Origin: Paenibacillus sp. sptzw28
GTDB taxonomy: Bacteria > Bacillota > Bacilli > Paenibacillales > Paenibacillaceae
Length of the DNA: 64,000 nt
Assembly: GCF_019550795.1 (NCBI RefSeq)
Contig: NZ_CP080545.1
Coordinates: 2,251,501 to 2,315,500 of the forward strand
Direction: 5' to 3'
Position numbers and translations under genes: made by a program. The notes under the pieces are model-generated. The model was given only the letters and a program-made list of their open reading frames with translations, did no database searches and was not told the origin of the DNA. Shown here piece after piece: positions 43,351 to 61,380 of this stretch (positions are counted from its first letter, which is position 1; the number at the start of each line of letters is the position of its first letter).

Positions 43351-43361
43351 GAATTACATAA

Positions 43362-43516: not shown

Positions 43517-45007
43517 ATGGCAAATCGTGTTACGATTAATGCGGATATCGCAAAAGGGAAGATCAACCGCAACATTTACGGTCATTTCTCCGAACATTTG
43601 GGCCGCTGCATTTATGAAGGAATTTGGGTCGGAGAAGATTCACCTATCCCGAACACGAACGGCATCCGCAACGATGTGGTGGACGCGCTTAAAAAAATTA
43701 AAATTCCGGTTCTCAGATGGCCGGGCGGCTGCTTCGCCGATGAATATCATTGGAAGGACGGAGTCGGACCGAGGGAAGAACGAAAGCGGATGATCAACAC
43801 GCATTGGGGCGGCGTCGTTGAAAATAATCATTTCGGTACGCATGAGTTTCTGATGCTCTGCGAAATGCTTGAGTGTGAGCCTTACATTTCCGGTAATGTC
43901 GGCAGCGGTACTGTGCAGGAGATGTCGGAATGGGTCGAATATATGACATTTGACGGCGTTTCCCCAATGGCCGAATGGCGGCAAAAGAACGGTCGCGAAA
44001 AGCCGTGGAGCGTTAAATATTTTGGCGTCGGCAATGAAAACTGGGGCTGCGGAGGCAACATGCGTCCGGAGTATTATGCGGATCTGTACCGGCGCTTTCA
44101 GACTTACGTACGCAATTACGGTGATAACCGGATTCATAAGATCGCATGCGGACCGAACGTCGACGATTACGGGTGGATGGAAACGGTAATGCGTGAAGCG
44201 CACAGGTTTATGGATTCCATCAGCCTGCATTATTATACCATTCCCGGCGACTGGTCGAATAAAGGCTCTTCTACCGATTTTACCGACAACGAATGGTTTG
44301 GGACATTGAAGAAGGCTCTATGGATGGATGAACTGATTTCGAAGCATTCGACGATTATGGACAAGTACGATCCGAACAAAAGGGTTGGTCTTATCGTGGA
44401 TGAATGGGGAACGTGGTTCGATGCGGAGCCGGGCACCAATCCCGGGTTTTTGTATCAGCAGAACACGATCCGCGATGCTCTGGTAGCGGGAATTACGCTT
44501 AATATTTTCCATCAGCATTGCGACCGTGTTCAAATGGCGAACATTGCGCAAGTCATTAATGTGCTGCAGTCCGTCATCCTGACCGAAGGGGAGAAAATGA
44601 TTCTTACGCCAACTTATCATGTGTTCGACATGTATAAGGTGCATCAGGATGCTGAACTTCTCAGTACGGATTGGGTCGTCGCCGATTATGAGCACGACGG
44701 GAACCGGATTCCACAGGTTTCTGTGTCCGCATCCAAGGATAGCGAAGGCAGGATTCATATCAGCCTGTGTAATTTGAGCCATGAGTCCGGAGCGGACGTT
44801 CAAATCGATCTGCGCGGACTGGCCGGACAGAAAACGACAGTTACAGGGACGGAGCTGTCTTCTCAAGCGACGAATGCCCATAATACTTTTGAACGGCCTG
44901 ACGCCGTCAGCCCGTCTGAGTTCAAAGCGTTTTCACTAGAAGGCTCAAGCATCCGCGCGCAGCTTTCACCGATGTCCGTTACCGTGCTTGAGGTAATTGC
45001 GGGATAA
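43517..45007 (+). CDS. abfA: Alpha-L-arabinofuranosidase (GH51)
   Basis: 496 residues. [20 protein letters not shown] near residue 70 and the acid/base Glu174 in [10 protein letters not shown], with the nucleophile Glu in IVDEWGTWF near 294, are the GH51 signatures. It removes terminal arabinofuranosyl groups from arabinan or arabinoxylan oligomers and, lacking a signal peptide, acts inside the cell. It lies between the ABC operon and the ArsR-type regulator, separated by terminators. ATG 43517 follows CAGGAGAGCGAGG at about 9 bases. Confidence 0.92.
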
Positions 45008-45085: not shown

Positions 45086-46000
45086 TTATTTTTCCGCCTT
45101 CGTGTAATACAGCTTGAATACGAGATCCTGATTGTAGTTGCCGAAGCCGGAGCCGAATAAGGTGACTCCGCCAACATGCTCGGCATCGTCAAGTACCGAG
45201 ATCCGGAAGGTCCACTGGCTGTTACGAATATCAATCTGATCGAGCGTTACCTCGGAGATTTTCAAACCATCCATAAACGTGCCGTCTTTTCTGATAATCA
45301 ACCGTTTCAATAGACCATACTGGTTCACGTCGTCCAGCCACCATGCAGGGTTCAGCCTGCCTTTCCCCCCGAAATCGCCTGGGCTTGTCCACATGCCGAT
45401 ATTGATGTCGTTAAAGAAGAAGGTTATGTCGGATGGCCAGTTGTTGTTCGTATTCGGGGCTTCCGATGAGATTTCCATTGAAATCTCGAGCTCTTCCGGT
45501 ATTTCGCTCGTCATTATAAAGTTGGGGAGTTTGTACTCGACAAAGCCTTCGCCGAACCAAAGGATTTTTGCATCCAGCCTCTCCGGAGAGAGAAAGTACC
45601 GGGGGTCGTCAAAAATGCCGATAATTTTCTCGCGGGTGCAAATTCCGCATGTTGGTTTGATGAGCAGATCCGTAAAGTGGCCGATCGATACATCGGTTCT
45701 CCTGAGCTCGCGTTGAACATGATCCTTTATCGGAAATGCGATCTCCAGATGATCGATATTAAGCGAGCACACCTTTTGCGCGGCCCCGCCTTTGCCCGGC
45801 GTCATCTCTGATCGGATAATGTCGGCCTTCTCAAGCTTCTTAACGTGCATGGTCATGATAGCGCTGCTTAGATTCAATGCTTCGGCCAGCTCCCGGATAT
45901 TCATGGATTTCTGTGAAAGCAGATGGATGATCTGTATTCGAACGTTGCTGGACAGCGCTTCGAATACGGCCAGGTTGTCTATGCTCAAATCGATTTTCAA
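45086..46000 (-). CDS. ArsR-type winged-helix regulator with large C-terminal domain
   Basis: I choose TTG 46000, preceded by GGAGG at 8 bases. 304 residues. The N-terminal 85 residues form a winged helix of ArsR type (EALSSNVRIQIIHLLSQKSM, NIRELAEALNLSSAIMTMHV, KKLEKADIIRSEM). The rest has PTCGICTREKIIGIFDDPRY and a beta-sandwich-like region (FFFNDINIGMWTSPGDFGGK, WWLDDVNQYGLL), reminiscent of sugar-sensing regulators near arabinofuranosidase genes in Paenibacillus. It likely responds to arabinose-type sugars and controls neighbours; inference. Confidence 0.75.
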   Translation of the reverse strand: MKIDLSIDNLAVFEALSSNVRIQIIHLLSQKSMNIRELAEALNLSSAIMTMHVKKLEKADIIRSEMTPGKGGAAQKVCSLNIDHLEIAFPIKDHVQRELRRTDVSIGHFTDLLIKPTCGICTREKIIGIFDDPRYFLSPERLDAKILWFGEGFVEYKLPNFIMTSEIPEELEISMEISSEAPNTNNNWPSDITFFFNDINIGMWTSPGDFGGKGRLNPAWWLDDVNQYGLLKRLIIRKDGTFMDGLKISEVTLDQIDIRNSQWTFRISVLDDAEHVGGVTLFGSGFGNYNQDLVFKLYYTKAEK

Positions 46001-46681
46001 ACAGATTCCTCCGTATAAATTTATTAACAATAATGTTATTAATAAAAACGTTTATAACAGTAATATACATGATTTAATAGAACACCACAAGAACCATAGT
46101 GTCAAGAAAGGAATAGTGATTCATGTTTTTATTGACAATTAGGCACTTAAAGGGTAGCGTAAGTGTTAATGATTCATATATAAGTTAAACTTTAACTATT
46201 ACCGTAACTAACAATTTGAAAGGGCTTACATGAAGGTGAGGATCACGGGATCCACGCGGCGGATTATCGGGGGCACCTTGTTAATGAAACCGATTTCAAG
46301 AAAGCGACATCAGTCGACAGCTATTTGAATATCCCTATAATTTGGGGCTTAGGAGCTATTTCTTCTTTACCAAAACAAGGAAAGAAGGAGAAGCAGTACG
46401 GATCGATATAAAAAAAATAGATTGAGTATAAAACTGGTTATTGACGAATTGAAGCGTTGTCATTATTATTAACACATAAATAAATTAATTAATATAAATG
46501 GTACTTACGTTTTATCTGTTGATCGCGCAGTGAATCGAGACAATTTTTAAATCGTTTGTGGAAGCGTATTCATTACATGATAACCCATGTAGTGAATGAG
46601 GTAAAGGAGGTGGGCTATGAAGATTTAATCAGCAGCATTCTCAAGACTTGCGAAATGAACAGACAATATAGGAGGGTTAAC
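46001..46681. other. Long intergenic region with a coding-like remnant (46220-46411)
   Basis: This 681-base gap separates the divergent regulator gene and the SBP operon. It is AT-rich with several partial palindromes. On the plus strand, frame 46220-46411 reads GLHEGEDHGIHAADYRGHLV then NETDFKKATSVDSYLNIPII and WGLGAISSLPK without a start codon or ribosome site, so it looks like a gene remnant; I do not recognise its family. Elsewhere I see no gene. Confidence 0.4.
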
Positions 46682-48091
46682 ATGAAAAAACCGTTAAGCA
46701 TTACAATTACGCTTCTTCTCGCATTAGTTTTGGTTATTTCCGGCTGTGCAAGCGGAAGCGGCAGCAAAACTGCGAATACGCCTGAGGCTGATAAACCGGC
46801 GAATGCGGCAGAAACGACCGAAAATAAAACCGAAGGAAATTCCCCGGCAAACGCTCCGGTTGAGGACGCAAAAGTTGAATTTGCAGCCAGCAATGCTACC
46901 GGTGAAGTTACCATATGGACGTTCGTATCGCAGCTTAAAGAAGTCGGCGATGAGTTCAATAAACAATTTCCAAATATTAAAGTAAAAGTGGTTGATATGG
47001 GCTGGGCGGTGCATGATAAGCTCGCAACGACACTGGCAGCCGGCACAGGCGCTCCGGATCTTGCCATCATCGAACAGGGTCAGTTCCCGAGATATGTAAC
47101 CGGCGGAGTCCTGGAGGATCTGCTTCAGCAGCCATACGATGCGGGAAGATTTCAAAATGATGTATCGGAATATAACTGGAACCGCTGGAAATCCGTTGAC
47201 GGAACCAAACTGCTCGGTATGCCGTGGGACGTAACGCCTGGTGTGCTTTACTACCGCGCCGATATTTATGAGCAGCTTGGACTTCCAAGCGATCCGGAAG
47301 AATTGGGCGAATATTTGCAAGACCCCGAGAACGTGCTGACCGTAGCTCAGACGCTAAAAGCGGACGGTAAATACTTCATGGAGTGGGGAGACGGACCTGT
47401 ACACTGGGGCGGCGACGCTATCGGCTATTTCGGCAATGATTTGAGCTGGCTACGCAATAATGAAAATCTTGCTCAGCTGCTCGATGTCACCAAACGCGGG
47501 GAGCAGCTCAAGTGGGCTCCTTATGAAGGCTGGGGCAGCGATAAAGGGAAACAAATGGTTAAGAAAGGCGAGCTGACAGGAACGGTCATCGGTTCGTGGG
47601 GAGCGCGCGAGCTCGAAAAAACGTTCCCTGACTTGAAAGGCAAATGGAGAGCGGCGAAAATGCCGTTCGGACTTGCAGTAGGTATGGGCGGATCCAGCTT
47701 CGTAATGCCGTCGCAAAGCAAAAACAAACAAGCAGCTTGGGCATTCATGGAATGGGCTACGAGATCGGAAGATGCCTGGAAAATTTGGACGAAATATTCG
47801 ATCCAGCCGGGTTGGAAGAATATCCAGAACCTCGATTGGTATATCGGCCACAAGAATGAATACCTTGGCGGGCAAGAAGACTACAAGCTGTATCAGGAAC
47901 TTGAAGCCAATATTCCGAGCAGAACATTGAATCCGCTTGACGGCAAAGCTTGGCCGATCTGGCTGGAAGGCGTGCAGAAAGCAATCAAGAAAAACCTTGA
48001 CTCCAAAGCAATCCTCCAGGAAATCCAGGAAAATATCGAGAACAAGCTGAAGCCTGATATCGAAAAATTGAGAAAAGAGATGGCTAAATAA
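46682..48091 (+). CDS. Family 1 extracellular solute-binding protein, first of a ten-gene operon
   Basis: ATG 46682 lies behind AGGAGGG; an earlier frame start at 46556 lacks a ribosome site. 469 residues. Lipobox VISGC at residues 18-22, then an Ala/Glu-rich linker, then the SBP_bac_1 core: VTIWTFVSQLKEVGDEFNKQ, AAGTGAPDLAIIEQGQFPRY, PGVLYYRADIYEQLGLPSDP and SSFVMPSQSKNKQAAWAFME. It delivers an oligosaccharide to the permeases downstream. An exact hairpin follows at 48107. Confidence 0.88.
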   Translation: MKKPLSITITLLLALVLVISGCASGSGSKTANTPEADKPANAAETTENKTEGNSPANAPVEDAKVEFAASNATGEVTIWTFVSQLKEVGDEFNKQFPNIKVKVVDMGWAVHDKLATTLAAGTGAPDLAIIEQGQFPRYVTGGVLEDLLQQPYDAGRFQNDVSEYNWNRWKSVDGTKLLGMPWDVTPGVLYYRADIYEQLGLPSDPEELGEYLQDPENVLTVAQTLKADGKYFMEWGDGPVHWGGDAIGYFGNDLSWLRNNENLAQLLDVTKRGEQLKWAPYEGWGSDKGKQMVKKGELTGTVIGSWGARELEKTFPDLKGKWRAAKMPFGLAVGMGGSSFVMPSQSKNKQAAWAFMEWATRSEDAWKIWTKYSIQPGWKNIQNLDWYIGHKNEYLGGQEDYKLYQELEANIPSRTLNPLDGKAWPIWLEGVQKAIKKNLDSKAILQEIQENIENKLKPDIEKLRKEMAK

Positions 48092-48106
48092 ATATCCGTC
48101 ATTTCA

Positions 48107-48132
48107 ATTCGCCCCCTTCCAAGGGGGCGAAT
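48107..48132 (+). promoter_or_regulatory. Intercistronic hairpin after the SBP gene
   Basis: ATTCGCCCCCTT and AAGGGGGCGAAT, perfect 12-base arms with a two-base loop and no long T-run after it. In ABC operons such hairpins stabilise the upstream SBP mRNA or attenuate readthrough into the permease genes. Confidence 0.7.
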
Positions 48133-48173
48133 GATTATTCAAAGCCGGTAATTAAGATAGGGGGTACTTCCTC

Positions 48174-51170
48174 GTGCTAAGATTCATGCGCAAGTACACG
48201 GTAAGCATCATCGTTGTACTTGTTTTAACGATATCGCTGACGTTGTGGAACCAATCCAGGGGCTTCGACGATACGGTTATGGCCAGTATTCCCAAGTACA
48301 AGGATGTAGACATGAAATCGATTCTGGCTGACGATGACATCCAAAGCAAGCTCGAGCCTTCTTACTTCGATTATTATAAAGCGCATAACGATGAGGGTGT
48401 CAAAGATACCGAGGGATTTAAGCTTTCGGTCCGCTCCACTGATTATTCCGCAGTCAGCAAGACGGGAACGCGCATCGAATCAGGTCTTGAAGGCCAAGCA
48501 GGTTCAACTTTGGCATTAATTGACGAAGACAGCTGGGCAGACTATACCATCGAAGTTCCGCAGGACGGATACTACCAGATGGGAATGAGCTATTATACGT
48601 TGCCGGGCAAAAGGTCTTCCATCGTGAGAAGTGTGCAAATTGACGGCGAATATCCATTCTTTCAGGCTAAAAAGATCGAATTCGGGCGGATGTGGCGCGA
48701 GTCCGGCAAAACCTGGTTTGACAACCAGGGTAACGAATTCAATCCGAGCAGGAAGGAAGTTAACGGATGGCAATATAGAGATTTTCGGGATTCGGAAGGA
48801 AAGGTCGGCGAACCGTTTCGTTTCTTCATGACGAAAGGGAAGCATACTGTGCGGATTAATGTGATTCGCGAACCGGCAGCTATAGGCGAGCTGTCCGTAT
48901 TTTCTCCAGTTCATCTGCCTTCCTATGCGGAAGTTGAAAAGGAGTACAAAGAGAAGGGCTACACGGAAGCCGCTGACAAAGTGATCAAAATTCAGGCGGA
49001 AACGGCGGCTCTGCGCTCGGACCCGACGCTTAAGCGGGTTGAAGACCGCGAGCCGATCACCGAGCCATTCAATAAAGACGCCTCGGCCCTTAACGCTTTC
49101 GGCGGTCCAGGCTGGCGCAACGGGGGTCAGTGGGCCCAGTGGGAGTTCGAGGTTCCGGAAAGCGGCCTATACCGGATCGGCATGCGTTTCGGACAGTGGT
49201 TCCTGAACGGCATTCCAGTTCAGCGGACGGTGATGATTGATGGAAAAATCCCGTTTAAAGAAATGAACGAAGTGCTGTTTCCTTACAAGCCGGAATGGCA
49301 AATTAAAAAACTGGGCGACGATAAGCCTTACTTATTTTATTTGGAAAAAGGCAAACATACCCTGCGCATGGAAGTACAGATCGGGTCGCTCGGACCGATT
49401 CTGGAATCGATAACGGATGCTGCGCATAAGATATCGCTGCTCAGCCGTGAAATTCTGCAAATTACCGGGACGAACCCGGATCCGAACGCGGATTGGAAGC
49501 TGGAGAAGAACATTACGAATCTGGTTCCGAGACTCCATGTTCTGGCGCAGGATTTGGACGGTGCGATCCATAAGCTGTATGACCTAGGAGTTCCCAAAGG
49601 CAGCTCCGAAGTGAGCTCGCTGTATGAAGGGCGCGACAAAATATTAAGCATGGCAGCGGACACGACGACTATTCCCGCCAGAATGACGTCGTTGACCGAT
49701 CTTCAATCGGCTCTAGGTATATGGGTCAACGGTTTAAGCAAGCAGAGTTTAGTGCTTGATTATTTGATCATCCAGTCCTCTGAGCAATCGTGGCCCCCTG
49801 CTCATGCGCCTTGGTATGTGAGGGCGGGGACAAGTCTCTATGATCTGGCGCATTCCTTCACGAAGAACTACAGCGGTGTCGGGAACGTCTATGCCGATGA
49901 AGAGGTTCTCGATGTTTGGGTTGCCCGTGGAAGAGACTGGGTTGACATCATCAAACAGATGATCGATGAAGATTTTACTCCTGAAACGGGAATTAAAGTT
50001 AATGTGAATGTCGTTCCTGCGGGACAAATGCAGACATTGCTGCTTGCCAATACGGCGGGACTGGCTCCGGATGCCGCACTTGGTGTGGAAGGCGAAGTGC
50101 CGATCGATTTCGCGGTACGGAACGCGCTTGTAAACTTGAAGAATTTCCCTGATTACCAAGAGGTTGCCGATCGGTTCAGGCCGGGAGCACTTATCCCGTA
50201 CAAGTATAACGGCGGCGATTATGCTCTGCCGGAGAATCAGAACTTCTACATGCTTTTCTACCGGAAAGATATTATGGAACAGCTTGGGATCACGGAGGAT
50301 AAAATTCCTCAGACGTGGCAGGATGTTATGGATTTGATTCCGCTGCTGCAGCAGAACGGAATGGATTTCTATTACCCGCACGCGCCCAATAATCCGAATA
50401 TGGCGATCAATGAATTCGCTCCCTTCCTGTTCCAGCAAGGCGGCAGCTTTTACAAGGGAAATGGGAAGCTGTCCGACCTGGATTCGCCTGAATCGATGGA
50501 AGCGATGAAAATGTGGACCGGATTATTTACAAACTATAAAATCCAGAAGCAAGCCGATTTCTACAACCGGTTCCGCTCGGGAGAGATGCCGATCGGCGTG
50601 GCGGATTATTCGACCTATATTTTGCTGTCAACCGCAGCTCCCGAATTAACCGGATGGTGGGGAATGCAGCCAATGCCGGGTATCAAGCAGTCCGACGGGC
50701 AAATCAACCGTTCCACAGGCGGGCTTGCTCAAACGGGGATTATTTTCAAGAGCTCCAAGAAGCAGGATCAAGCGTGGAAGTTTCTGAAATGGTGGACCAG
50801 CGCCGATTCTCAGGAAAGGTTCGGTTCCGAGCTGGAGTCGCTTCTGGGCGTGGAAGCGCGTTGGAACACCGCAAACATCGAAGCGCTCAAACGATTGCCT
50901 TGGAATAAATCCGATCTTGATGCGATTATGAAGCAATGGGAGTGGTTCCAAGAGCGTGAGGTCGTGCTCGGGGGCTATTATACGACGCGATATATCGCCA
51001 ATATGTGGAACGAAATCGTCCTGAACGGAAAAATTCCGCGTGAAGCTGTCGAGAGCGGTGTCAAGGAAATCGACAAGGAGCTTCGCAAGAAGCGGGAAGA
51101 ATTCGGATTGGATGAAAAAACGACGGCAAACAATCAAGAGGGTAAAAAGGAGGTGGCAAGCGATGAGTGA
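48174..51170 (+). CDS. Giant solute-binding fusion: membrane anchor, two beta-sandwich modules, family 1 SBP
   Basis: GTG 48174 follows AGGGGG. 998 residues. A hydrophobic anchor (about 8-27) is followed by two related beta-sandwich modules: the first about residues 115-245 (WADYTIEVPQDGYYQMGMSY, PFRFFMTKGKHTVRINV), the second about 325-415 (QWEFEVPESGLYRIGMRFGQ, PYLFYLEKGKHTLRMEVQIG). Then a helical linker (about 425-560), and from about 580 a full SBP domain (VLDVWVARGRDWVDIIKQMI, LPENQNFYMLFYRKDIMEQL). The modules look like carbohydrate-binding domains, so the protein may capture polysaccharide at the surface. Stop overlaps the next start. Confidence 0.8.
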   Translation: MLRFMRKYTVSIIVVLVLTISLTLWNQSRGFDDTVMASIPKYKDVDMKSILADDDIQSKLEPSYFDYYKAHNDEGVKDTEGFKLSVRSTDYSAVSKTGTRIESGLEGQAGSTLALIDEDSWADYTIEVPQDGYYQMGMSYYTLPGKRSSIVRSVQIDGEYPFFQAKKIEFGRMWRESGKTWFDNQGNEFNPSRKEVNGWQYRDFRDSEGKVGEPFRFFMTKGKHTVRINVIREPAAIGELSVFSPVHLPSYAEVEKEYKEKGYTEAADKVIKIQAETAALRSDPTLKRVEDREPITEPFNKDASALNAFGGPGWRNGGQWAQWEFEVPESGLYRIGMRFGQWFLNGIPVQRTVMIDGKIPFKEMNEVLFPYKPEWQIKKLGDDKPYLFYLEKGKHTLRMEVQIGSLGPILESITDAAHKISLLSREILQITGTNPDPNADWKLEKNITNLVPRLHVLAQDLDGAIHKLYDLGVPKGSSEVSSLYEGRDKILSMAADTTTIPARMTSLTDLQSALGIWVNGLSKQSLVLDYLIIQSSEQSWPPAHAPWYVRAGTSLYDLAHSFTKNYSGVGNVYADEEVLDVWVARGRDWVDIIKQMIDEDFTPETGIKVNVNVVPAGQMQTLLLANTAGLAPDAALGVEGEVPIDFAVRNALVNLKNFPDYQEVADRFRPGALIPYKYNGGDYALPENQNFYMLFYRKDIMEQLGITEDKIPQTWQDVMDLIPLLQQNGMDFYYPHAPNNPNMAINEFAPFLFQQGGSFYKGNGKLSDLDSPESMEAMKMWTGLFTNYKIQKQADFYNRFRSGEMPIGVADYSTYILLSTAAPELTGWWGMQPMPGIKQSDGQINRSTGGLAQTGIIFKSSKKQDQAWKFLKWWTSADSQERFGSELESLLGVEARWNTANIEALKRLPWNKSDLDAIMKQWEWFQEREVVLGGYYTTRYIANMWNEIVLNGKIPREAVESGVKEIDKELRKKREEFGLDEKTTANNQEGKKEVASDE

Positions 51171-52122
51171 CCATAGCAGCGCAGTTGTTGTGAAGCAGCA
51201 GCCGGCACGTGCTCTCGAAGTGGGGAAAATGGCCAAGCTGTGGATCGACATCAAACGGAACAGGGTTTCCTACTACTTCCTTGCCCCGTTCCTCATCTTG
51301 TTCACGTTGTTTACGATTATACCGATACTCACTTCGGTCGCGCTTAGCTTCACCTACTACAACATTCTTGAGGCGCCGCGGTTTATCGGTTTGTCGAACT
51401 ACAAATTATTGTTCGTCGACGACGACATCTTTCTTAAGGCGATCGGCATTACGCTGAAATTCGCGTTTATCACCGGTCCCCTCGGCTATGTGCTTGCTTT
51501 TCTGCTCGCATGGCTGATCAGCCAGATTCCGGTTAAATACCGGTTTTTCTATACGCTTTGCTTCTATACGCCTTCGATAACAAGTGCCGTAGCGATGTCA
51601 GTCGTGTGGTTGTATCTGTTCGCGGGGGACCGCAAAGGGCTGCTCAATCATTATTTGATGAAGCTCGGCATTCTGGATGAACCGTACTTGTTTTTGCAAA
51701 ACATTCATTCGATCGTGCCGGTCATCATTATTGTATCGCTCTGGATGAGCATGGGCGTCGGTTTTCTCGCCTTCCTTGCCGGACTGCAGAATGTGCCCAA
51801 AGACCTGTACGAAGCCGGTTCGATAGACGGGATCAAATACCGCTGGCAGCAGCTGATATTCATCACCATCCCTTCCGTAAAGCCGCAGCTGCTGTTCGGC
51901 GCGGTTATGCAGGTCGTCTTCTCGCTGCAGGTGTTTGACGTCAGCGTGCAGCTGGTCGGCTTGCCAAGTCCGCTGTACGCCGGTCATACGATTCTCGCCC
52001 ATCTTTTCGATTACGCCTTTATCCGGTTCGAAATGGGCTATGCTTCCGCGATCGCCGTCGTACTGTTTTGCCTTATGCTCGGATTGAACCGTCTTATTTT
52101 CAAATGGCTCGGGAGGGATTAA
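51163..52122 (+). CDS. Sugar ABC permease, MalF/UgpA type (pair 1)
   Basis: ATG 51163 overlaps the previous stop (ATGAGTGA), translationally coupled; GGAGGTGG is upstream. 319 residues with six helices after a cytoplasmic N-terminus; the EAA loop is DLYEAGSIDGIKYRWQQLIF near 226. Pairs with the next permease. Confidence 0.88.
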   Translation: MSDHSSAVVVKQQPARALEVGKMAKLWIDIKRNRVSYYFLAPFLILFTLFTIIPILTSVALSFTYYNILEAPRFIGLSNYKLLFVDDDIFLKAIGITLKFAFITGPLGYVLAFLLAWLISQIPVKYRFFYTLCFYTPSITSAVAMSVVWLYLFAGDRKGLLNHYLMKLGILDEPYLFLQNIHSIVPVIIIVSLWMSMGVGFLAFLAGLQNVPKDLYEAGSIDGIKYRWQQLIFITIPSVKPQLLFGAVMQVVFSLQVFDVSVQLVGLPSPLYAGHTILAHLFDYAFIRFEMGYASAIAVVLFCLMLGLNRLIFKWLGRD

Positions 52123-52125
52123 CGG

Positions 52126-52989
52126 ATGGCTGGCATGGTAAAAGGAAGAAGGGTAGATTGGGGAGACGTATCCCTGTACACGTTTTTGACGGTATTGGGA
52201 CTTGTCATGCTTGCTCCTTTGGTCTACATGGCTTCGACCGCAATAAAGCCGGTAAGCGAGCTGTTTCTATTCCCGCCCCGTTTTTTTGTGGTCAATCCGA
52301 CGCTCATTAACTTTCGCGATTTGCTGCTTATTACTGGAACGTCCTTTGTTCCGTTTTCGAGGTATATTTTCAACAGCGTCGTTGTAACACTCGGCATCGT
52401 GATCTTTGGGGTTCTGATTTCCGCGATGGCGGCTTATCCGCTTGCCAAGCACGAAATGCCCTTTAAGAAATGGATTTTCAGCATGGTGGTAACGGCTTTA
52501 ATGTTCTCGCCGATGGTTCTGCAAATTCCGCAGTATTTGATTATCAGCAAGATCGGACTCATGAACACCTATTTTGCAATGATCCTGCCTTATCTGGCCG
52601 CTCCGATCGGCATGTTTCTGATGACGCAGTTTCTGAGGCAAATTCCGGATGCCCTGCTCGAAGCCGCCCGTATGGACGGGGCTTCGGAATGGAAAGTTTT
52701 CTTCACGGTGATCATGCCCATGTTGAAGCCGGCAATCTCGACTTTCGCCTTGTTCAGCTTCATTCAGGCGTGGAACGATCCCTATCCCGCGATGGTGTAT
52801 ACCACGCACGAGGATATGAAATCACTGCCGCTTGCGATTCAGACAATCAGCGGCGGCGCAGGGGTCATTGCACGGGTTGGCACATTGGCGGCAGCGAGCT
52901 TCCTGATGATCATTCCGACCATTATCGTATTTGTCATTACACAGCGGATGGTGCTGCAGACGATGGCCCACTCGGGACTGAAAGAGTAG
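52126..52989 (+). CDS. Sugar ABC permease, MalG/UgpE type (pair 1)
   Basis: ATG 52126 lies 3 bases after the preceding stop, with GGGAGGGATT upstream. 287 residues, six helices, EAA loop LLEAARMDGASEWKVFFTVI near 177. Together with the previous gene, it forms the first channel; no ATPase gene is present in the operon, so a shared MsmX-type ATPase elsewhere must energise it. Confidence 0.88.
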   Translation: MAGMVKGRRVDWGDVSLYTFLTVLGLVMLAPLVYMASTAIKPVSELFLFPPRFFVVNPTLINFRDLLLITGTSFVPFSRYIFNSVVVTLGIVIFGVLISAMAAYPLAKHEMPFKKWIFSMVVTALMFSPMVLQIPQYLIISKIGLMNTYFAMILPYLAAPIGMFLMTQFLRQIPDALLEAARMDGASEWKVFFTVIMPMLKPAISTFALFSFIQAWNDPYPAMVYTTHEDMKSLPLAIQTISGGAGVIARVGTLAAASFLMIIPTIIVFVITQRMVLQTMAHSGLKE

Positions 52990-53002
52990 GGGGTGAACCA
53001 TT

Positions 53003-54484
53003 TTGAAGCGTTTTCTTATAAAGGCTAATGCCTCCGTATGCATGCTCGCTCTGCTCATGCTTCTTCTGCCGGCGCATACACGGGCCGAGATTCCTTATGA
53101 AGGGTATACCTGGAACAAACTTGGCCAGGACGTACGCTCCATTAACGGATACGTTTATGTCGATTCGATTGACGGTACGGATATGCCGACCGGGACGTTC
53201 AACACGCCCGAAGATATATTCATCGCGGATGACGATACCCTATACCTTGTGGATACCGGGAACAGCCGTGTCATTCATATGGACAGCAGGACGCATAAAG
53301 TGATCGATGTCATCGGCGCAGACGAGGGCCCGGGCATGCTCTCGGAGCCGAAAGGCGTATACGTCAAGAAAGACGGCACCGTCTACGTTGCGGACACAAA
53401 GAATCAACGCATCGCCATATTCGATAAGACCGGAAAATTTGTAAGGGAATTGAAGGCGCCAAGCAGCCCGCTTCTCGGCAAGGACTTTCAATACTCCCCG
53501 TCCAAAGTAATACTGGACAAGCGTGATTATATGTTTGTCGTGAGCGACGGGAACACGCAGGGGCTTATGCAAATCAACCAGAAGGGCGAGTTTAAAGGCT
53601 TTTACGGAGCCAACCATGTCGAATTCAGCTGGAATCGGTTATTTGTGAAGCTCGTCGCCACTGATGAGCAGAAGCAGCAGTTATCCGCCGTCAAAGCTCT
53701 GGCTTTCTCGAATATGGACCAGGATCAGGACGGCTTTGTTTATACGACGACGCTCGGAGTGAACGACAATCAGATTAAACGATTGTCGCCCGTAGGCGTG
53801 GATACACTTCCCGGAAGCAAAAATTACGGCGACAGGTTTGATATCGGACCTTTTGAAACAACCCAATTTGTCGATGTTACCGTCAACAAAGACGGTCTGA
53901 TCAGCGCGCTCGATTTGCAGACAAGCAAAGTGTTCCAATACGATAAGCTGGGCAATTTGCTGTTCGCTTTCGGCGGCAACGGAGATCAGGACGGTTTGTT
54001 CACAACGCCTGCCAGTATCGATCAAACCTCAGACGGCATGTTGTATGTCGTGGATAAAGGGCGCAACCGGATCGACCGCTTTCGTACGACGCCTTTTGCC
54101 GATCTGGTTCACCAAGCTTCCAACCTGTACGTCGACGGAAGGTACGCGGAGGCGGAATCGCTGTGGAAGGAAGTCCTTGATATGAATGCCAATTTCGATA
54201 TGGCCTATCTTGCAATCGGCAAATCGTTATATAAGTCGGACCGTTATCAAGAGGCAATGGAGTACTTCAGTCTGGCCCGTTCCAAAAACGATTATTCGGA
54301 CGCGTTCCGCGAATACCGGAAGCAGTACGCAAGGGATCACTTCGCCCAAATCTTGGGCGGCATTATTCTTCTGATACTGATCTTCAGATTCTTGCTTCCA
54401 TGGAGTATCCGGCTGGCCAAGCGAAAGCTATGGGAACCGAGATTCGGTAAACCGCCCGTTGTAAGGGGAGGGGAGCTAAAATGA
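53003..54484 (+). CDS. Exported NHL-repeat/TPR membrane protein
   Basis: TTG 53003 follows GGGGGTGA. 493 residues. Signal peptide (about 8-28), then repeated six-bladed propeller-type blades such as FNTPEDIFIADDDTLYLVDT, GVYVKKDGTVYVADTKNQRI and VDVTVNKDGLISALDLQTSK up to about residue 375. Then two or more TPR-like helices (ASNLYVDGRYAEAESLWKEV, GKSLYKSDRYQEAMEYFSLA) and a C-terminal membrane helix (about 451-470) with a basic cytoplasmic tail. Possibly a surface scaffold for the importers. Its stop overlaps the ATG of the YIP1 gene (ATGA). Confidence 0.8.
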   Translation: MKRFLIKANASVCMLALLMLLLPAHTRAEIPYEGYTWNKLGQDVRSINGYVYVDSIDGTDMPTGTFNTPEDIFIADDDTLYLVDTGNSRVIHMDSRTHKVIDVIGADEGPGMLSEPKGVYVKKDGTVYVADTKNQRIAIFDKTGKFVRELKAPSSPLLGKDFQYSPSKVILDKRDYMFVVSDGNTQGLMQINQKGEFKGFYGANHVEFSWNRLFVKLVATDEQKQQLSAVKALAFSNMDQDQDGFVYTTTLGVNDNQIKRLSPVGVDTLPGSKNYGDRFDIGPFETTQFVDVTVNKDGLISALDLQTSKVFQYDKLGNLLFAFGGNGDQDGLFTTPASIDQTSDGMLYVVDKGRNRIDRFRTTPFADLVHQASNLYVDGRYAEAESLWKEVLDMNANFDMAYLAIGKSLYKSDRYQEAMEYFSLARSKNDYSDAFREYRKQYARDHFAQILGGIILLILIFRFLLPWSIRLAKRKLWEPRFGKPPVVRGGELK

Positions 54485-55095
54485 ATACGATTCGCATGAT
54501 GAAGCAGGTTCTCGCCCATCCCTATGATTTTTACCACGACATTCAAGAGCCGGGACGGCTCAAGTGGTCTCAGGGAATTGTTCTGATCCTTCTCGTCTAT
54601 GCCGCAAGAATGCTCTCCATACTTGCGACCAGCTATACGTTTCAGACGCGAGAGCCGTATGAAATTTCTTATATCCATGAGTTCATATGGATCGTCGTGC
54701 CGTGGCTGACCTGGTGCATCTCCAATTGGGGAGTCAGCGCGATCATGGACGGCGAAGGGAAATTTAAAGAGGTATTTATCGGCAGCGTATTCGCAATGGT
54801 ACCTTATATGCTGTTCATCGTTCCGATCGCACTGCTGACGAATCTTCTTTCGTTCAGCGAGCAATCCCTATACAGCTCCCTGACGATGTTAACCTTCTGC
54901 TGGATGGGATGGCTTCTGATCGTGAAGGTGAAAATCATTCATGACTTTGAACTCGGCAAGTTGATCTGGATAACGCTCATCAGCCTTCTCGGCATGGCGA
55001 TCATATGGTTTATCGGCATCCTCATGTACGGACTGATTAATCAGCTGATCAATTTTGTTGTTGACCTGATTAAAGAAATGAAATTCCGCATGTAG
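54481..55095 (+). CDS. YIP1-family membrane protein
   Basis: ATG 54481 overlaps the previous stop. 204 residues with about five hydrophobic segments: GIVLILLVYAARMLSILATS (about 33-52), FIWIVVPWLTWCISNWGVSA (about 73-92), then three more near 98-120, 130-148 and 160-185. The layout and length fit Yip1 domain proteins, mostly of unknown bacterial function. Its position between an exported NHL/TPR protein and the DUF5696 protein suggests a membrane partner of those proteins. Confidence 0.75.
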   Translation: MNTIRMMKQVLAHPYDFYHDIQEPGRLKWSQGIVLILLVYAARMLSILATSYTFQTREPYEISYIHEFIWIVVPWLTWCISNWGVSAIMDGEGKFKEVFIGSVFAMVPYMLFIVPIALLTNLLSFSEQSLYSSLTMLTFCWMGWLLIVKVKIIHDFELGKLIWITLISLLGMAIIWFIGILMYGLINQLINFVVDLIKEMKFRM

Positions 55096-55104
55096 GAGGT
55101 AAGC

Positions 55105-57489
55105 ATGAAAAAGAAGCACAAAGTAATCGGTACACTGAGCATTGTTATCATGCTGGCATTCAGTGTCGTCTACCCTTATATCGGACGTGCGGAGGAGAAG
55201 ACCGATCAGGCCGGACAGCAGCAGAATGACCAGAACAAAGACACGGACTCAGCGGCTGCCCAATCGGCGGAACCAGCCGGAACGAAGGATGCGGAACCGG
55301 CCGGAACGAAGGATGCGGAAGCGACGCAGAGCGGTAACGCTGCGGGCACGAGTCTGACTTTGCAGCCACGAAGCTCTCTATATCCGGTGACGGCGACGAC
55401 TAAGGTCGCCGAGAACAACCAATTTGTGTTGTACCTGGACCCTAAGACAGCCAATATCAGGGTGGTTAATAAGCAAACCCATAAAGAATGGCTCGGCGCG
55501 CCGCAAGTAGACCGGAAAACGCTGCCGAACAACAAAAAATTTCTCGACTCTCCGGTTCACATCAAATATACGGAAGGATCGGATATTACCCAGACGTACA
55601 CCTTGAAAAAAGAAGTCGGGACGAAATTGACTATCGAGAATATCGATCAAGGCGCACGGGTCCAGTTCGACCTGACCGGTCTGAAGATGTCCTTCGCGGT
55701 CGAGTATCGACTGACTGATGACGGAGTGGAAACAACGGTCCCTTACGATTCCATCAAAGAAACTGGAACGGCGAGACTGACCAGTCTTGAAGTGCTTCCT
55801 GCTTTCAACGCCGGAAAAGAGACCGATCAAGGGGCGCTCTTCGTCCCCGACGGGTCAGGCGCTCTGATGGTGTTTCGGAAGAACCACCCGAAATATTTCA
55901 GCGGTTATTCCGAACACGTATATGGTCCGGATCTGGCATTTAAAACCGAATCTTTCAATGATATCGACCCGTATTGGCGGCAGGAGAAGCCTCCGAAGGA
56001 ATCTATCGCGCTTCCCGTGTTCGGGAGTTACCGGAACGGAACAGGATTTCTGGGCATCATCACGAAAGGCGACAAGGATGCGATCATTAACGGCATTCCG
56101 GCCGGTATTCGCAATATTGCCCTGTACCGGGCGTCGGCTGAGCTGGTGTACCGGAAATCGGATGTAATCTTTATCGGTTCGTCGGGCCAGATTCCATTGT
56201 TTCAAGGCAAGAATATAGCGGGCGACCGACAGATCCGTTATGTGCTGCTTGAGGACAAAGAGGCCGATTATGTCGGAATGGCCAAAGCTTACCGCGAGTA
56301 TTTAATGAAGGAAAAGAACCTTAAACCGGTGAAGCAGGATGCGATGCCGCTGAATGTAAGGCTGCTTGGCGGACTTTTGCGGGATGAGATCATCGGAACG
56401 ACCTTTATCGAGATGACGACCTTTGAACAGGCTCGCTCAATCATCGATCAATATGCCGGCATGGGGGTCAAAAACCTTGAACTGACGTTCACCGGTTGGT
56501 CGAAGGACGGATTGTACGGCAACCAGCCTGATCATTTTCCCGTCGAAAGGCAGCTTGGCGGTGCGAAAGGGCTCAAGGAACTGGTCAGTTACGCGAAGGA
56601 AAAAGGAGTATCCGTCTATCTGCAGGCTAATTATGTCAGACCTTTTGAGACCAGCGACGGTTATTCCAAGAGAAATGACGCCATCCGCGGGATCGACCGT
56701 GAAGTGATGGAAAGCTTTAATTCCTTTATTGCCAGCCGCTACAACAATCATAACGAAGTGTTTTACTTCATGAAGCCTGAACGCATGCTTGACAAGCATA
56801 TCAAGAATGAGCTTGAAGACTTTGCGGATCTGGGGATTGCCGGCGTTTCATTGAAATATATGGGAGATACGGTTTATTCCGATCTGGATCCGGACAGTCC
56901 GGCGAGCCGGGAGCAAACCGCCGACACCTGGGTAAGCGCTCTTGATGCGTTTAAGGAAAAGGTGGGGAAAACGTCGGTTGATTACGGTTTTGCCTATACG
57001 CTTGGGCATGTTGACCGAATTGATAACGCCCCCATGGATTCGAGCCATTTTGTTTATACCGATCAGACGGTGCCATTCTACCAGCTTGTACTCCATGGGC
57101 TAGTCACTTACACTTCGAAGCCGACGAACTTGCGGGACGATTCGCGCAGAGAGTTTTTGCGGGCAGTCGAATATGGCGCCCTGCCGAGCTATGAATTGAC
57201 CTACGAGCCGCCGAGCAAGCTGCAGCGTACGATAGAGGACCGGCTGTACAGTTCAAGCTCCAGCTATTGGCTGAACCCGTCGACCGAGGAGTACAGTGAA
57301 TTTGCGAAGCTGTATGAACAGGTCGGCGATCAGCAAATTATCAACCATGAACGGATAAGTGCGCACGTATACCGCACCACTTACGCCAACGGAATTCAAA
57401 TCATCGTTAACTATGGGGATGCGGCCCAGTCGGTTGACGGTCAAACGGTCAAAGGTCTCGATTATACCGTATCAGGGGGAGGAAGCTAG
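55105..57489 (+). CDS. DUF5696 exported protein
   Basis: ATG 55105 has AGGAGG 5 bases upstream. 794 residues. A signal or anchor (about 8-26) is followed by an Ala/Glu/Thr linker with an exact-frame 24-base tandem duplication (two AEPAGTKD units, bases 55267-55314). The core has a beta region to about 300 and a TIM-barrel-like part (NVRLLGGLLRDEIIGTTFIE, KNLELTFTGWSKDGLYGNQP, VSVYLQANYVRPFETSDGYS). DUF5696 proteins sit next to carbohydrate ABC genes; no reaction is established, though a glycosidase-like fold is plausible. Confidence 0.75.
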   Translation: MKKKHKVIGTLSIVIMLAFSVVYPYIGRAEEKTDQAGQQQNDQNKDTDSAAAQSAEPAGTKDAEPAGTKDAEATQSGNAAGTSLTLQPRSSLYPVTATTKVAENNQFVLYLDPKTANIRVVNKQTHKEWLGAPQVDRKTLPNNKKFLDSPVHIKYTEGSDITQTYTLKKEVGTKLTIENIDQGARVQFDLTGLKMSFAVEYRLTDDGVETTVPYDSIKETGTARLTSLEVLPAFNAGKETDQGALFVPDGSGALMVFRKNHPKYFSGYSEHVYGPDLAFKTESFNDIDPYWRQEKPPKESIALPVFGSYRNGTGFLGIITKGDKDAIINGIPAGIRNIALYRASAELVYRKSDVIFIGSSGQIPLFQGKNIAGDRQIRYVLLEDKEADYVGMAKAYREYLMKEKNLKPVKQDAMPLNVRLLGGLLRDEIIGTTFIEMTTFEQARSIIDQYAGMGVKNLELTFTGWSKDGLYGNQPDHFPVERQLGGAKGLKELVSYAKEKGVSVYLQANYVRPFETSDGYSKRNDAIRGIDREVMESFNSFIASRYNNHNEVFYFMKPERMLDKHIKNELEDFADLGIAGVSLKYMGDTVYSDLDPDSPASREQTADTWVSALDAFKEKVGKTSVDYGFAYTLGHVDRIDNAPMDSSHFVYTDQTVPFYQLVLHGLVTYTSKPTNLRDDSRREFLRAVEYGALPSYELTYEPPSKLQRTIEDRLYSSSSSYWLNPSTEEYSEFAKLYEQVGDQQIINHERISAHVYRTTYANGIQIIVNYGDAAQSVDGQTVKGLDYTVSGGGS

Positions 57490-57491
57490 AG

Positions 57492-58370
57492 ATGAAGAAT
57501 CGGTTAAGAATGTCGATGAGAGCCAGGCACATCTTTGAGGGATACTCGTTTATCTCGATCTGGATTATCGGCTTCCTCCTGTTTATGGCAATCCCACTTG
57601 GGCGTTCGTTTTATTACTCGCTCCATGATTTGAAGCCTTCGAAAGACGGCATGATCTCGACCTATGTCGGGCTGACGCATTTTCGGGGCGCCTTTACAAC
57701 GGATGTCAATTTCCTGCCGCTTCTGCAAACGACGATCGGTAAGATGCTCTCGCAGGTGCCGCTGATTCTGATCTTCGCCATGTTCAGTGCACTTCTGCTC
57801 AACCGCAAATCGTTCGGAAGGATTTTCTTCAGAGGGGTATTCTTTCTGCCGGTTATTATCGCCTCCGGGGCGATTCTGCGTAAGCTGCTGGAGCAGGGTG
57901 CCGCGAAGCTTCCAATCTTCTACCAGTATGATTTGTTCGGGAAGCTGGTTGTATTCATTCCCGCACAGATTCTCGAACCTCTGCTGCAGTATGCCGACTC
58001 GTTAACGCTTGTCATGTGGGATTCGGGCGTGCAAATTCTCATCTTCCTGGCCGGCCTGCAGACAATATCCCCACAGCTATATGAAGCGGCAAAGTGCGAC
58101 GGAGCGACGAAATGGGAAAGCTTCTGGAAAATAACATTTCCGATGATCATGCCGATGATTTTCGTCAACACGCTTTACAGCATCGTCAACTCGTTCACCA
58201 AGGCAGACAACGATGTTATGAATCATATCTTGAACGTTGTGTTCCGCTCTAACGATTACGGTTATGGTTCGGCAATCGGGTGGGTATATTTCATCATTAT
58301 TTTCATCCTGCTCGGGTTCGTCTTTCTGGCTTTCCGGAAAGGCCTGGCCGCAACGGAAGGGAGGCTGTAA
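57492..58370 (+). CDS. Sugar ABC permease, MalF/UgpA type (pair 2)
   Basis: ATG 57492 lies 2 bases after the DUF5696 stop, with GGGGGAGG upstream. 292 residues, six helices (first about 18-38). EAA loop LYEAAKCDGATKWESFWKIT, near 197. It begins the second permease pair, different in sequence from pair 1, so the operon encodes two distinct import channels. Confidence 0.88.
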   Translation: MKNRLRMSMRARHIFEGYSFISIWIIGFLLFMAIPLGRSFYYSLHDLKPSKDGMISTYVGLTHFRGAFTTDVNFLPLLQTTIGKMLSQVPLILIFAMFSALLLNRKSFGRIFFRGVFFLPVIIASGAILRKLLEQGAAKLPIFYQYDLFGKLVVFIPAQILEPLLQYADSLTLVMWDSGVQILIFLAGLQTISPQLYEAAKCDGATKWESFWKITFPMIMPMIFVNTLYSIVNSFTKADNDVMNHILNVVFRSNDYGYGSAIGWVYFIIIFILLGFVFLAFRKGLAATEGRL

Positions 58371-58371
58371 C

Positions 58372-59358
58372 ATGAACTCGACTGGCGTTCAATCCTTACC
58401 CAAAGCGCAAACCGTAGATAAAGTAAAACAAGCTCATAAGTTCACCTATGTCAAACAGGGGAAGAATATTGCCGGGAACATTTTCTATTATCTGGTTTTA
58501 TTCAGTCTTTCCTTCGTATTTCTTTACCCGCTGCTGTACATGATCTCGCAGTCGCTTATGAGAGTTCAGGATGTTGCCGACGCCACAGTGCAGTGGATAC
58601 CGAAAACATTCAGCTTCAATAACTATGTCATTGCTTTCGGCGAGATTCATTATTGGCAGGGTTTCATTAACAGCGTTATCATTTCATTCGGAAGCGCTGT
58701 TCTGCAAATTCTAAGCTGCTCGCTCATCGGTTACGGGTTCGCCAGGTACCGGTTTCCCGGTCAAACGTTCTGGCTGGCTCTAGTCGTATTCACGTTTCTG
58801 GTGCCACCGCAGACGATCGTCGTGCCGCTTTATATCTTTTTCAGCGATTTAGGGTGGATCAATACGCATCTGCCGTTTGTTTTCCCGGCCCTCTTCGGCC
58901 ACGGACTGAAAGGCGCCTTGTTTGTCCTTATCTTTATTCAGTTTTACCGCAGGCTGCCGGCTGTGCTTGAAGAGGCCGCCAGGATTGACGGGGCCGGAGC
59001 GTTTCGAACATATTGGATGATCATGTTTCCGCTCGCGAAACCGGCCATGCTCGTCGTATTCCTGTTCTCTGTCGTTTGGCACTGGAATGACTTGTTCGAA
59101 CCGAATACCTATTTGATGGTGCCGGATTATTTTAACCTTGCTCAAAATATGTCCATCTTTAACGGTAATGCAAACGCGAATGTCAATCAAATGGCTCAAT
59201 CGGTATCCGCAAGCGATGCGCTGGGAATGGCGCCGACCTTGCAGAATCAGGTTATGGCTGCGGTCTTGATGACGATTGCCCCTATTTTGATTTTGTACTT
59301 ATTTATTCAGCGGCATTTTGTGGAGAGTGTTGAACGTGCAGGAATCGCGGGAGAATAA
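58372..59358 (+). CDS. Sugar ABC permease, MalG/UgpE type (pair 2)
   Basis: I choose ATG 58372 (GGGAGG upstream), one base after the previous stop. 328 residues, EAA loop LEEAARIDGAGAFRTYWMIM near 200, six helices from about residue 38. The N-terminal 30 residues are hydrophilic and cytoplasmic. Partner of the 57492 permease. Confidence 0.88.
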   Translation: MNSTGVQSLPKAQTVDKVKQAHKFTYVKQGKNIAGNIFYYLVLFSLSFVFLYPLLYMISQSLMRVQDVADATVQWIPKTFSFNNYVIAFGEIHYWQGFINSVIISFGSAVLQILSCSLIGYGFARYRFPGQTFWLALVVFTFLVPPQTIVVPLYIFFSDLGWINTHLPFVFPALFGHGLKGALFVLIFIQFYRRLPAVLEEAARIDGAGAFRTYWMIMFPLAKPAMLVVFLFSVVWHWNDLFEPNTYLMVPDYFNLAQNMSIFNGNANANVNQMAQSVSASDALGMAPTLQNQVMAAVLMTIAPILILYLFIQRHFVESVERAGIAGE

Positions 59359-59416
59359 CAAACGCGGGCGAATAACAGAAGTTAGTTTGAGTAAAGAATC
59401 ATAAGGGGTATTACGC

Positions 59417-60385
59417 ATGCAAACGAAAGAAGAGCAAATGAAGCAGCAATATATTAATCCGCTCATACCTCAGAGAGCGGACCCTTGGGTGTACAAGCAT
59501 ACGGACGGGTATTATTACTTCACCGCTTCGGTTCCAGAATATGACCTTATCGAGGTGAGAAGGTCCGCTACGATTCAGGGTCTGGGTACAGCGGAGACGG
59601 TTGTCGCCTGGAGAAAGCATGATGCAGGCCCGATGAGCGCGAATATTTGGGCGCCGGAGATCCATTATATCGATGACAAATGGTACATTTATTTCGCGGC
59701 TGCAAGATCCGATGAAGCGTTCAATCACCGGATGTATGTAATCGAGAATGAATCGGCAAATCCACTGGAAGGACAGTGGGTAGAGAAGGGCCAGATTGTA
59801 ACGGGGTGGGAATCGTTCTCGCTGGATTCAACGACCTTTGAACACGAGGGTACCCGTTTTCTGGTTTGGGCTCAGAAGGACCCGGAGATTCCCGGCAACA
59901 CCAACCTGTACATTGCTCCTATGAGCAATCCGTGGACGATACAAGGCCCGCAAAAGATGATCACAATGCCCGAGTACGAATGGGAAAAAATCGGCTACCT
60001 CGTTAATGAAGGTCCTGCGGTGGTCAAGCGTAATGGCCGAATATTCATCACCTACTCGGCAAGCGCTACCGATCATCATTACTGCATGGGGCTTCTTACG
60101 GCGTCCGACACGGACGACCTAATGGACCCATCTTCGTGGAGCAAATCGGCTGAGCCGGTTTTCGCTACTAGTGAGACGACTGGTCAATACGGCCCGGGGC
60201 ATAACAGCTTCACCATTGCCGAGGACGGCTTGACGGACATCCTAATTTATCATGCGCGCAACTATAAGGAAATAACCGGAGATCCGCTTAACGATCCCAA
60301 TCGTCATACCCGCGCCCAAAGCTTCGGGTGGAACAGCGACGGTACCCCAGATTTCGGCATCCCGGTTCCGGATGAGGAATCCTGA
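59417..60385 (+). CDS. GH43-family arabinan/xylan glycosidase
   Basis: ATG 59417, upstream AAGGGG at 59402-59407. 322 residues of the five-bladed beta-propeller type. Catalytic residues by position: the general base Asp in QRADPWVYKHTDGYYYFTAS, the pKa-modulating Asp in SLDSTTFEHEGT and the acid Glu in LVNEGPAVVKRNGRIFITYS. Such enzymes remove arabinofuranosyl or xylosyl groups. No signal peptide is seen, so it acts inside the cell on the sugars imported by the operon. A terminator follows. Confidence 0.88.
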   Translation: MQTKEEQMKQQYINPLIPQRADPWVYKHTDGYYYFTASVPEYDLIEVRRSATIQGLGTAETVVAWRKHDAGPMSANIWAPEIHYIDDKWYIYFAAARSDEAFNHRMYVIENESANPLEGQWVEKGQIVTGWESFSLDSTTFEHEGTRFLVWAQKDPEIPGNTNLYIAPMSNPWTIQGPQKMITMPEYEWEKIGYLVNEGPAVVKRNGRIFITYSASATDHHYCMGLLTASDTDDLMDPSSWSKSAEPVFATSETTGQYGPGHNSFTIAEDGLTDILIYHARNYKEITGDPLNDPNRHTRAQSFGWNSDGTPDFGIPVPDEES

Positions 60386-60417
60386 TTACCTTTCCATGGA
60401 ATACGAATGATACAAGT

Positions 60418-60459
60418 AAAAGCCTCCAGCTTCACTTTGACAGTGATTCTGGAGGCTTT
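60418..60459 (+). terminator. Terminator of the long carbohydrate operon
   Basis: AAAGCCTCCAG (60418-60428...) and CTGGAGGCTTT (60449-60459), an 11-base stem with inner CACT/AGTG pairing, followed by CTGT with weak T-run. Confidence 0.7.
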
Positions 60460-61320: not shown

Positions 61321-61380
61321 TTCCGCCATATTTTCAGCTCATTAACGTTTGTTTCACCAGGCTGTAACAAGTTTTTGTTA

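Follow-up and report, generated by a model that had tools for sequence, protein, structure and literature searches.

A conserved double-importer gene cassette at the core of a probable glycan-uptake operon in Paenibacillus sp. sptzw28

The window analyzed here is a 64,000-nucleotide stretch of Paenibacillus sp. sptzw28 (contig NZ_CP080545.1, positions 2,251,501 to 2,315,500), which carries, on the plus strand between positions 46682 and 60385 of the window, a block of ten genes (Table 1). An earlier note had read this block as an operon with two solute-binding proteins (SBPs), two permease pairs, and NHL/TPR, YIP1, DUF5696, and GH43 proteins; all ten genes were confirmed at their positions, and the Pfam matches and coordinates agree with that description. 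The intergenic spacings along the block are 82, −8, 3, 13, −4, 9, 2, 1, and 58 bases, i.e., most junctions overlap or are shorter than 20 bases as the note had said, the two exceptions being the gaps after SBP1 and before the GH43 gene. No ATPase gene lies within the ten-gene block. The comparisons below establish that the block is one copy of a conserved, widespread Gram-positive double-importer cassette, and we consider it probable (roughly 75%) that it works as a glycan-uptake operon built round this cassette, with both importers serving the same glycan.

The eight-gene core of the cassette comprises SBP2, PermA1, and PermB1 (module A) and NHL, YIP1, DUF5696, PermA2, and PermB2 (module B). 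Genes for DUF5696 were matched in 40 of 59 relatives at E 0.001 (38 above the family cut-off), one genome holding 17 of them, and in 46 of 398 Bacillota genomes (39 above the cut-off). The 81 loci compared here are the window plus the surroundings (at most 20 kb per stretch) of 80 DUF5696 genes found in 55 Bacillota genomes, that of the window among them; these 80 were hand-picked from the listed matches without knowledge of their neighbors, the second 40 being chosen after the first 40 had been seen, and 16 of them come from one genome. NHL, YIP1, PermA2, and PermB2 adjoined DUF5696 in all 81 loci, with the best NHL and YIP1 matches falling in one open reading frame (ORF) in 42 loci and in separate ORFs in 39. 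SBP2, PermA1, and PermB1 were also in the stretch, completing the eight-gene core, in 75 of the 81, and gene order was as in the window in 71 of these 75 full loci; in the other four (L113, L117, L119, and L127) module B came first. The expectation that the second permease pair would accompany the first thus stands, both being present in 75 of 81 DUF5696 loci. In the genome with 17 DUF5696 matches, 16 loci were fetched (L050, L055, L064, and L128–L140), all with the eight core genes.

The association of the two modules was also seen at the level of whole genomes. Among the 398 Bacillota genomes, the SBP2 N-domain was matched in 59 at E 0.001 and in 38 at E < 1e-100; at the latter threshold, DUF5696 was present in 37 genomes, the SBP2 N-domain in 38, and both in 36 (hypergeometric 1e-47), and in the 37th DUF5696 genome (G159) the SBP2 gene is cut by a contig end. 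A first protein scan of genome contigs returned no relatives, and a scan with the L114 DUF5696 protein as query returned five loci, from Ruminococcus and Clostridia assemblies. All eight genes are present in L147–L150 (the SBP2 of L150 being cut short), and L151 holds SBP2, PermA1, PermB1, a 708-residue NHL ORF, DUF5696, and PermA2, with no PermB2 and no separate YIP1 in a stretch that ends after PermA2.

Moreover, the core proteins have diverged together. Pairwise distances of seven core proteins correlated at 0.65–0.85 across the 75 full loci, and none of the 200 label shuffles run for each pair exceeded 0.12. The pattern recurred among the 16 copies within one genome, where the correlation was 0.875 for PermA1/PermA2 and 0.763 for SBP2/DUF5696, levels that none of 2000 shuffles reached in either case. 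Of the seven proteins, DUF5696 has diverged furthest, with a median identity of 28%. These results bear out the earlier proposal that both permease pairs belong with the NHL/YIP1/DUF5696 core. A chance neighborhood of unrelated genes was ruled out by the presence of both pairs in 75 of 81 loci, by the co-occurrence of SBP2 and DUF5696, and by the correlated divergence.

Table 1. Features of the ten-gene block and its surroundings in the window (importer assignments are those proposed in the text)
Feature	Position	Strand	Basis
SBP1, lipoprotein solute-binding protein, putatively importer B	46682..48091	+	SBP_bac_1 E 1.3e-27; lipobox in sequence
SBP2, 998 residues, putatively importer A	48174..51170	+	SBP_bac_1 in C-terminal part
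PermA1, CUT1-type permease, putatively importer A	51163..52122	+	BPD_transp_1; EAA loop
PermB1, CUT1-type permease, putatively importer A, C-terminal tail SGLKE	52126..52989	+	BPD_transp_1; EAA loop
NHL propeller + TPR protein, N-terminal signal/anchor, C-terminal membrane helix	53003..54484	+	Pfam; hydrophobic segments at both ends
YIP1-domain membrane protein	54481..55095	+	Yip1 E 3.3e-13
DUF5696 protein: N-terminal hydrophobic segment, low-confidence linker, predicted GH129-like fold	55105..57489	+	DUF5696 E 3.5e-193
PermA2, CUT1-type permease, putatively importer B	57492..58370	+	BPD_transp_1; EAA loop
PermB2, CUT1-type permease, putatively importer B	58372..59358	+	BPD_transp_1; EAA loop
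GH43 enzyme, accessory gene, no signal peptide in sequence	59417..60385	+	Pfam E 8.7e-75
ArsR-family regulator	45086..46030	-	HTH_5 E 5.5e-08
Alpha-L-arabinofuranosidase-type gene (GH51-type)	43517..45007	+	Alpha-L-AF_C E 4.3e-53
Two promoter-like sites, TCGACA-16-TATAAT and TTGACG-17-TATTAT	46314..46469	+	Consensus scan, not evidence of function
11-bp GC-rich hairpin in SBP1/SBP2 gap, possible stabilizer or attenuator	48107..48132	+	Fold of 82-base gap
Strong hairpin 3' of GH43, possible terminator, weak T tail	60419..60459	+	z -5.7

The earlier note had remarked on the missing ATPase, which does not point to a special system, since sharing of one MsmX/MsmK-type ATPase by importers of the CUT1 type is ordinary (PMC5730181 and PMC8579813). 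In Caldicellulosiruptor bescii, deletion of msmK severely impaired growth on cellobiose, cellulose, xylan, and pectin (PMC8579813). Consistent with such sharing, the EAA loop is retained in all four window permeases, and its glutamate is kept in 75/75 PermA1, 75/75 PermB1, and 81/81 PermA2 sequences, while PermB2 has E in 71/80 and D in 9/80. The position that contacts the ATPase is acidic in every copy of the four permeases (D or E in PermA2, mostly D in the others), and all 75 PermB1 copies end in a G-hydrophobic-K tail form resembling the MsmX-linked tails described in PMC5730181. The genome has one OB_MalK match, which lies outside the cassettes and scores 471 bits against a cut-off of 432 for the UgpC subfamily. 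The frame neighboring this ATPase gene presumably encodes an HPr kinase, as read by eye. With coupling loops kept, an unlinked UgpC-type gene in the genome, and the precedent of shared ATPases, the lack of an ATPase gene in the operon is ordinary, and it was discarded as an unusual sign; both importers are likely powered by the unlinked MsmX/UgpC-type ATPase.

The pairing of binding proteins with permeases can be proposed from gene neighborhoods. Besides SBP2, 71 of 80 loci have a further SBP, which lies immediately upstream of SBP2 in 37 and downstream of DUF5696 in 27; none was found in the remaining 9 of 80. Where the layout departs from the usual one, it precedes NHL in L113, L117, L104, and L105, lies between PermB1 and NHL in L140, and follows PermB2 in L102, L104, and L105. 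Because the further SBP adjoins module B in these six loci, we infer that SBP1 serves importer B together with PermA2/PermB2, and that importer A would consist of SBP2 and PermA1/PermB1; the authors of the C. bescii study likewise name two transporters, XloEFG and AxoFGE (PMC8579813). SBP2 is predicted to have an N-terminal membrane helix, two beta-sandwich domains, a helical domain, and a C-terminal SBP. Weak Pfam matches to its N-terminal domains at E 0.1 were to Golvesin_C (30 of 31 sequences), CBM35 (12/31), GH115_C (8/31), and CBM6 (6/31), and in structure searches the matches were taken up by the SBP part rather than by these domains.

As for the substrate, the neighboring enzymes differ between loci, and the cassette is therefore not tied to one glycan. 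A scan of 100 downstream genes, out of 187 picked and all belonging to the first 40 loci, matched 97 families; among the 25 listed, GH26 occurred eight times, GH32, GH35, and GH42 four times each, and GH113, GH10, GH123, and Alpha-L-AF_C three times each. Likewise, 35 downstream genes of one genome included GH5, GH26, GH85, GH43, GH2, GH4, GH35, fucosidase, and GH109 among the 25 of 49 families listed. Cassette neighbors in the genome with 17 DUF5696 genes include the GH85, GH109, fucosidase, and NanE families, which suggests that animal-type glycans may be served too. The cassette may be a means by which these bacteria deal with a wide range of polysaccharides.

For the window copy, the adjacent GH43 and GH51-type genes make the arabinan-type substrate of the earlier note plausible, and its cargo is probably an arabinofuranosyl oligosaccharide (fragments of arabinan or arabinoxylan). 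The closest solved relatives of the GH43 enzyme are 9nxj, 9nxg, 3k1u, 3akf, and 5m8b (E 6e-151 to 7e-129), and the names among its relatives are mixed, i.e., “GH43” for 9nxj and 9nxg, beta-xylosidase for 3k1u and 5m8b, and arabinofuranosidase for 3akf and 5m8e. The missing signal peptide suggests that this enzyme is cytoplasmic. The arabinofuranosidase-type gene, which scores 263.7 against the ArfA model NF051901 (cut-off 625), probably belongs to the same pathway as the block. Eight loci share the SBP1 type of the window (profile score >600), and an arabinofuranosidase-type or GH43 gene adjoins the cassette in five of them, namely the window, L035, L037, and L071 (arabinofuranosidase), and L135 (GH43, specificity not assigned). 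The claim of a system for a complex polysaccharide and not a simple sugar importer was not upheld, as the parts are oligosaccharide-type importers and a GH43 enzyme with no signal peptide; leaving aside DUF5696, should it be such an enzyme, the operon has no evident secreted enzyme that would cut polymers. What survives of the proposed dedicated surface system is that the permease pairs and the core belong together and that many cassette neighbors are glycosidases.

Several observations weigh against reading the block as one double-importer system for a single glycan. DUF5696 is present in 81 of 81 loci by construction, and the counts are therefore silent on permease pairs of the second kind living without it. 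Linkage of the modules is not obligatory, given that six of the 81 loci (L102, L104, L105, L109, L110, and L112) carry module B but lack module A within the stretch; three of these (L104, L109, and L112) stop at a contig end, and all six genomes hold an SBP2-type N-domain elsewhere. Two genomes (G160 and G209) have the SBP2 N-domain and no DUF5696 match. Correlated divergence speaks for co-inheritance, not contact; the pairing of SBP1 with importer B comes from few loci, further SBPs being mostly beside module A or missing; and three loci of the window’s SBP1 type (L034, L047, and L052) have no arabinose enzyme among their identified flanking genes, only some of which were scanned. A rival reading, to which we give slightly less than even odds, has two ordinary CUT1 importers of separate function, placed in one operon because both carry fragments of the same polysaccharide, with NHL, YIP1, and DUF5696 as accessory proteins and no joint machine. 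In its favor, an SBP and a permease pair can be assigned to each module, DUF5696 and SBP2 were located on different contigs in G119, G190, and G220, and the C. bescii case is described as two transporters, AxoFGE and XloEFG (PMC8579813). However, independent importers do not readily explain why the order is kept in 71 of 81 loci, why divergence is correlated between the modules even among paralogs of one genome, or why NHL and YIP1 accompany DUF5696 and the second pair in every locus, whatever the nearby enzymes.

The predicted fold of DUF5696 is like that of GH129 glycosidases (NagBb 5wzn/5wzq and ZgGH129 5opq/8rzk). DUF5696 may be an active, GH129-related surface glycosidase that makes the cargo for both importers, such that its sequence, and not the SBPs, sets the substrate; we regard this as a serious candidate with the odds somewhat against it. 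GH129 proteins share its predicted overall fold, and similarity in sequence reaches to roughly barrel strand 3, near which the significant GH129 match ends; no catalytic pair could be recognized across the family. No acid of the catalytic half is invariant over the 81 loci (E689 77/81, D593 72/81, and D653 65/81), and position 585, which we take, by eye, to correspond to the strand-4 aspartate, is D in only about a third of them. A profile of this half matched no GH129 chain, which leaves the catalytic residues not mappable onto GH129. The Pfam GH129 model (PF11308) had no match in 299 genomes, that of the window included, and none in the controls either; with a GH101 model, matches appeared in 2 of 101 genomes and passed the cut-off in one. 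Within the DUF5696 subfamily of the window, three acids are invariant. A 662-residue DUF6259 protein (L154:8802-10790) gave a weak DUF5696 match that falls short of the cut-off (E 2.5e-5), and the two families may be related.

Under the reading that both importers serve one glycan, importer A, with its membrane-anchored SBP2 bearing beta-sandwich domains, and importer B, with its lipoprotein SBP1, would take up products of the same glycan. NHL/TPR-YIP1 in the membrane and DUF5696 at the surface would work for importer B and perhaps for both importers; their most likely task would be to present, trim, or select the glycan at the membrane. The MsmX-type ATPase encoded elsewhere would drive both importers, and the cytoplasmic GH43 and neighboring GH51-type enzymes would then cut the arabinofuranosyl oligosaccharide to arabinose.

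A closely similar arrangement is present in the xylan degradation locus of C. bescii (Athe_0174-0185), an operon given as xloEFG-X-GH129-axoFGE-xynF-xynE-xynD-xyn10A-xynX-xynB (PMC8579813, Table 3). As in the block, two CUT1 importers lie round X and “GH129” and are followed by an SBP and glycosidases, with a shared MsmK ATPase; unlike the block, it has xylan enzymes in place of the arabinofuranosyl enzyme. On xylan versus cellobiose, the proximal genes of this locus were about 10- to 100-fold up and the distal genes 4- to 9-fold (PMC8579813), which supports the idea that one glycan can induce both importers together. A 2.4-Mb Bacillota genome holds the related order SBP2-PermA1-PermB1-NHL/YIP1-DUF5696-PermA2-PermB2-SBP-SBP-GH43-GH10-GH39-GH10-esterase-GH39-GH10 (L114 and L152), which is the C. 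bescii layout save for a second SBP and a further GH10. By layout, the C. bescii “GH129” may thus correspond to DUF5696 and X to NHL/YIP1. In contrast to the block, NHL and YIP1 form one ORF in L114, and further SBPs are downstream (two in L114, one named for C. bescii) instead of upstream. The available text of PMC8579813 treats its case as two transporters in one locus and not as a recurring unit, and a limited literature search on DUF5696, on YIP1/SBP/permease in Paenibacillus, and on MsmX operons turned up no account in which the recurring double importer is described as a system. The parts and one instance are thus already known.

More distant comparisons are informative as well. AraNPQ of Bacillus subtilis, which takes up alpha-1,5-arabinooligosaccharides, and other MsmX-dependent CUT1 importers resemble the block in having an SBP, two permeases with the EAA loop, and no ATPase of their own (PMC5730181). 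Unlike the block, AraNPQ has one permease pair. We know of no NHL, YIP1, or DUF5696 protein associated with it. Glycan uptake by Bacteroidota is understood through the recurring SusCD core, a constant uptake core that is multiplied within genomes with copies beside different glycosidases, while Gram-positive uptake is usually told one importer at a time. The cassette shares this multiplication of a constant core beside varying glycosidases and differs in using ABC (ATP-binding cassette) importers, with no outer membrane, in place of TonB-dependent transport; to our knowledge the two have no homologous parts. One tentative and, on present evidence, rather unlikely extension is that the cassette works on the same principle as SusCD and is its Gram-positive counterpart. 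It would then form one membrane complex in which two ABC importers share an ATPase on an NHL/TPR-YIP1 scaffold and a fast-evolving GH129-like protein, which in many copies has ceased to be an enzyme, selects or presents the glycan and thereby sets the substrate; copies (17 DUF5696 genes in one genome) would multiply beside different glycosidases to cover plant and animal-type glycans. An eight-gene core whose order is largely retained across Bacillota families, whose members diverge together, and which occurs at least 16 times in one genome beside different glycosidases would make DUF5696 a single marker for finding and predicting glycan loci, and would give three poorly understood proteins (DUF5696, NHL/TPR, and YIP1) a testable role.

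Regulatory signals were considered next to the gene content. Promoter-like sites (14 vs 18.7) and terminator-like sites (12 vs 17.9) in 45000-60700 showed no excess over shuffles, the promoter search being a weak consensus scan. The best promoter-like site (11/12) and one of four 10/12 sites lie upstream of SBP1, and one plus-strand 10/12 site lies inside the block, at 58653; internal promoters that would split the block, the concern raised in the earlier note, were thus set aside, a question that such a weak scan answers weakly. At the end of the operon, where the earlier note had placed a terminator, there is a strong hairpin, a possible terminator with a weak T tail and no entry in the list of the terminator scan. 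The hairpin in the 82-base gap (z −2.3) was equaled in stability by 4 of 200 shuffles, and no Rfam family reached its gathering score in 43000-62000. The ArsR-family protein is a candidate local regulator of the block, and ArbA, a regulator of the same family, is found paired with an abfA gene in Caldicellulosiruptor (PMC8579813). An AT-rich 24-base repeat (46015-46503) has two copies upstream of the ArsR gene and one that overlaps or adjoins the operon’s second promoter-like site; it is a possible shared operator of the two. Two-component, AraC, or LacI regulators adjoin several cassettes, as would be expected if the cassette were mainly a sensor in which the anchored SBP2 and the NHL/YIP1/DUF5696 assembly report surface glycan and the importers are secondary. 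We find this improbable, because the permeases keep their coupling loops and the regulators vary between loci, the candidate here being of the ArsR type.

Several minor observations concern single loci. One cassette (L115:5062-7921) has its PermB1 split by an IS110-family transposase gene that runs on the opposite strand. In G065, a genome from a Bacillota family whose SBP2 N-domain matches are all weak, the SBP2 halves look like separate proteins on different contigs, a 544-residue N-domain protein (L153:8178-9812) and a 432-residue SBP (L154:12435-13733, 272 bits to the SBP2 C-part), and no other core gene was matched beside either. Around the block itself, a broken cytochrome P450 gene lies directly 3' of the operon (60604-61320), with a 139-residue open piece matching p450 (E 9e-22) and the remainder, by reading, out of frame. 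An oligopeptide-type ABC operon (SBP_bac_5, two permeases, and two ATPases; 37609-43350) immediately precedes the GH51-type gene, and a GH28 gene lies on the minus strand at 31271-32707.

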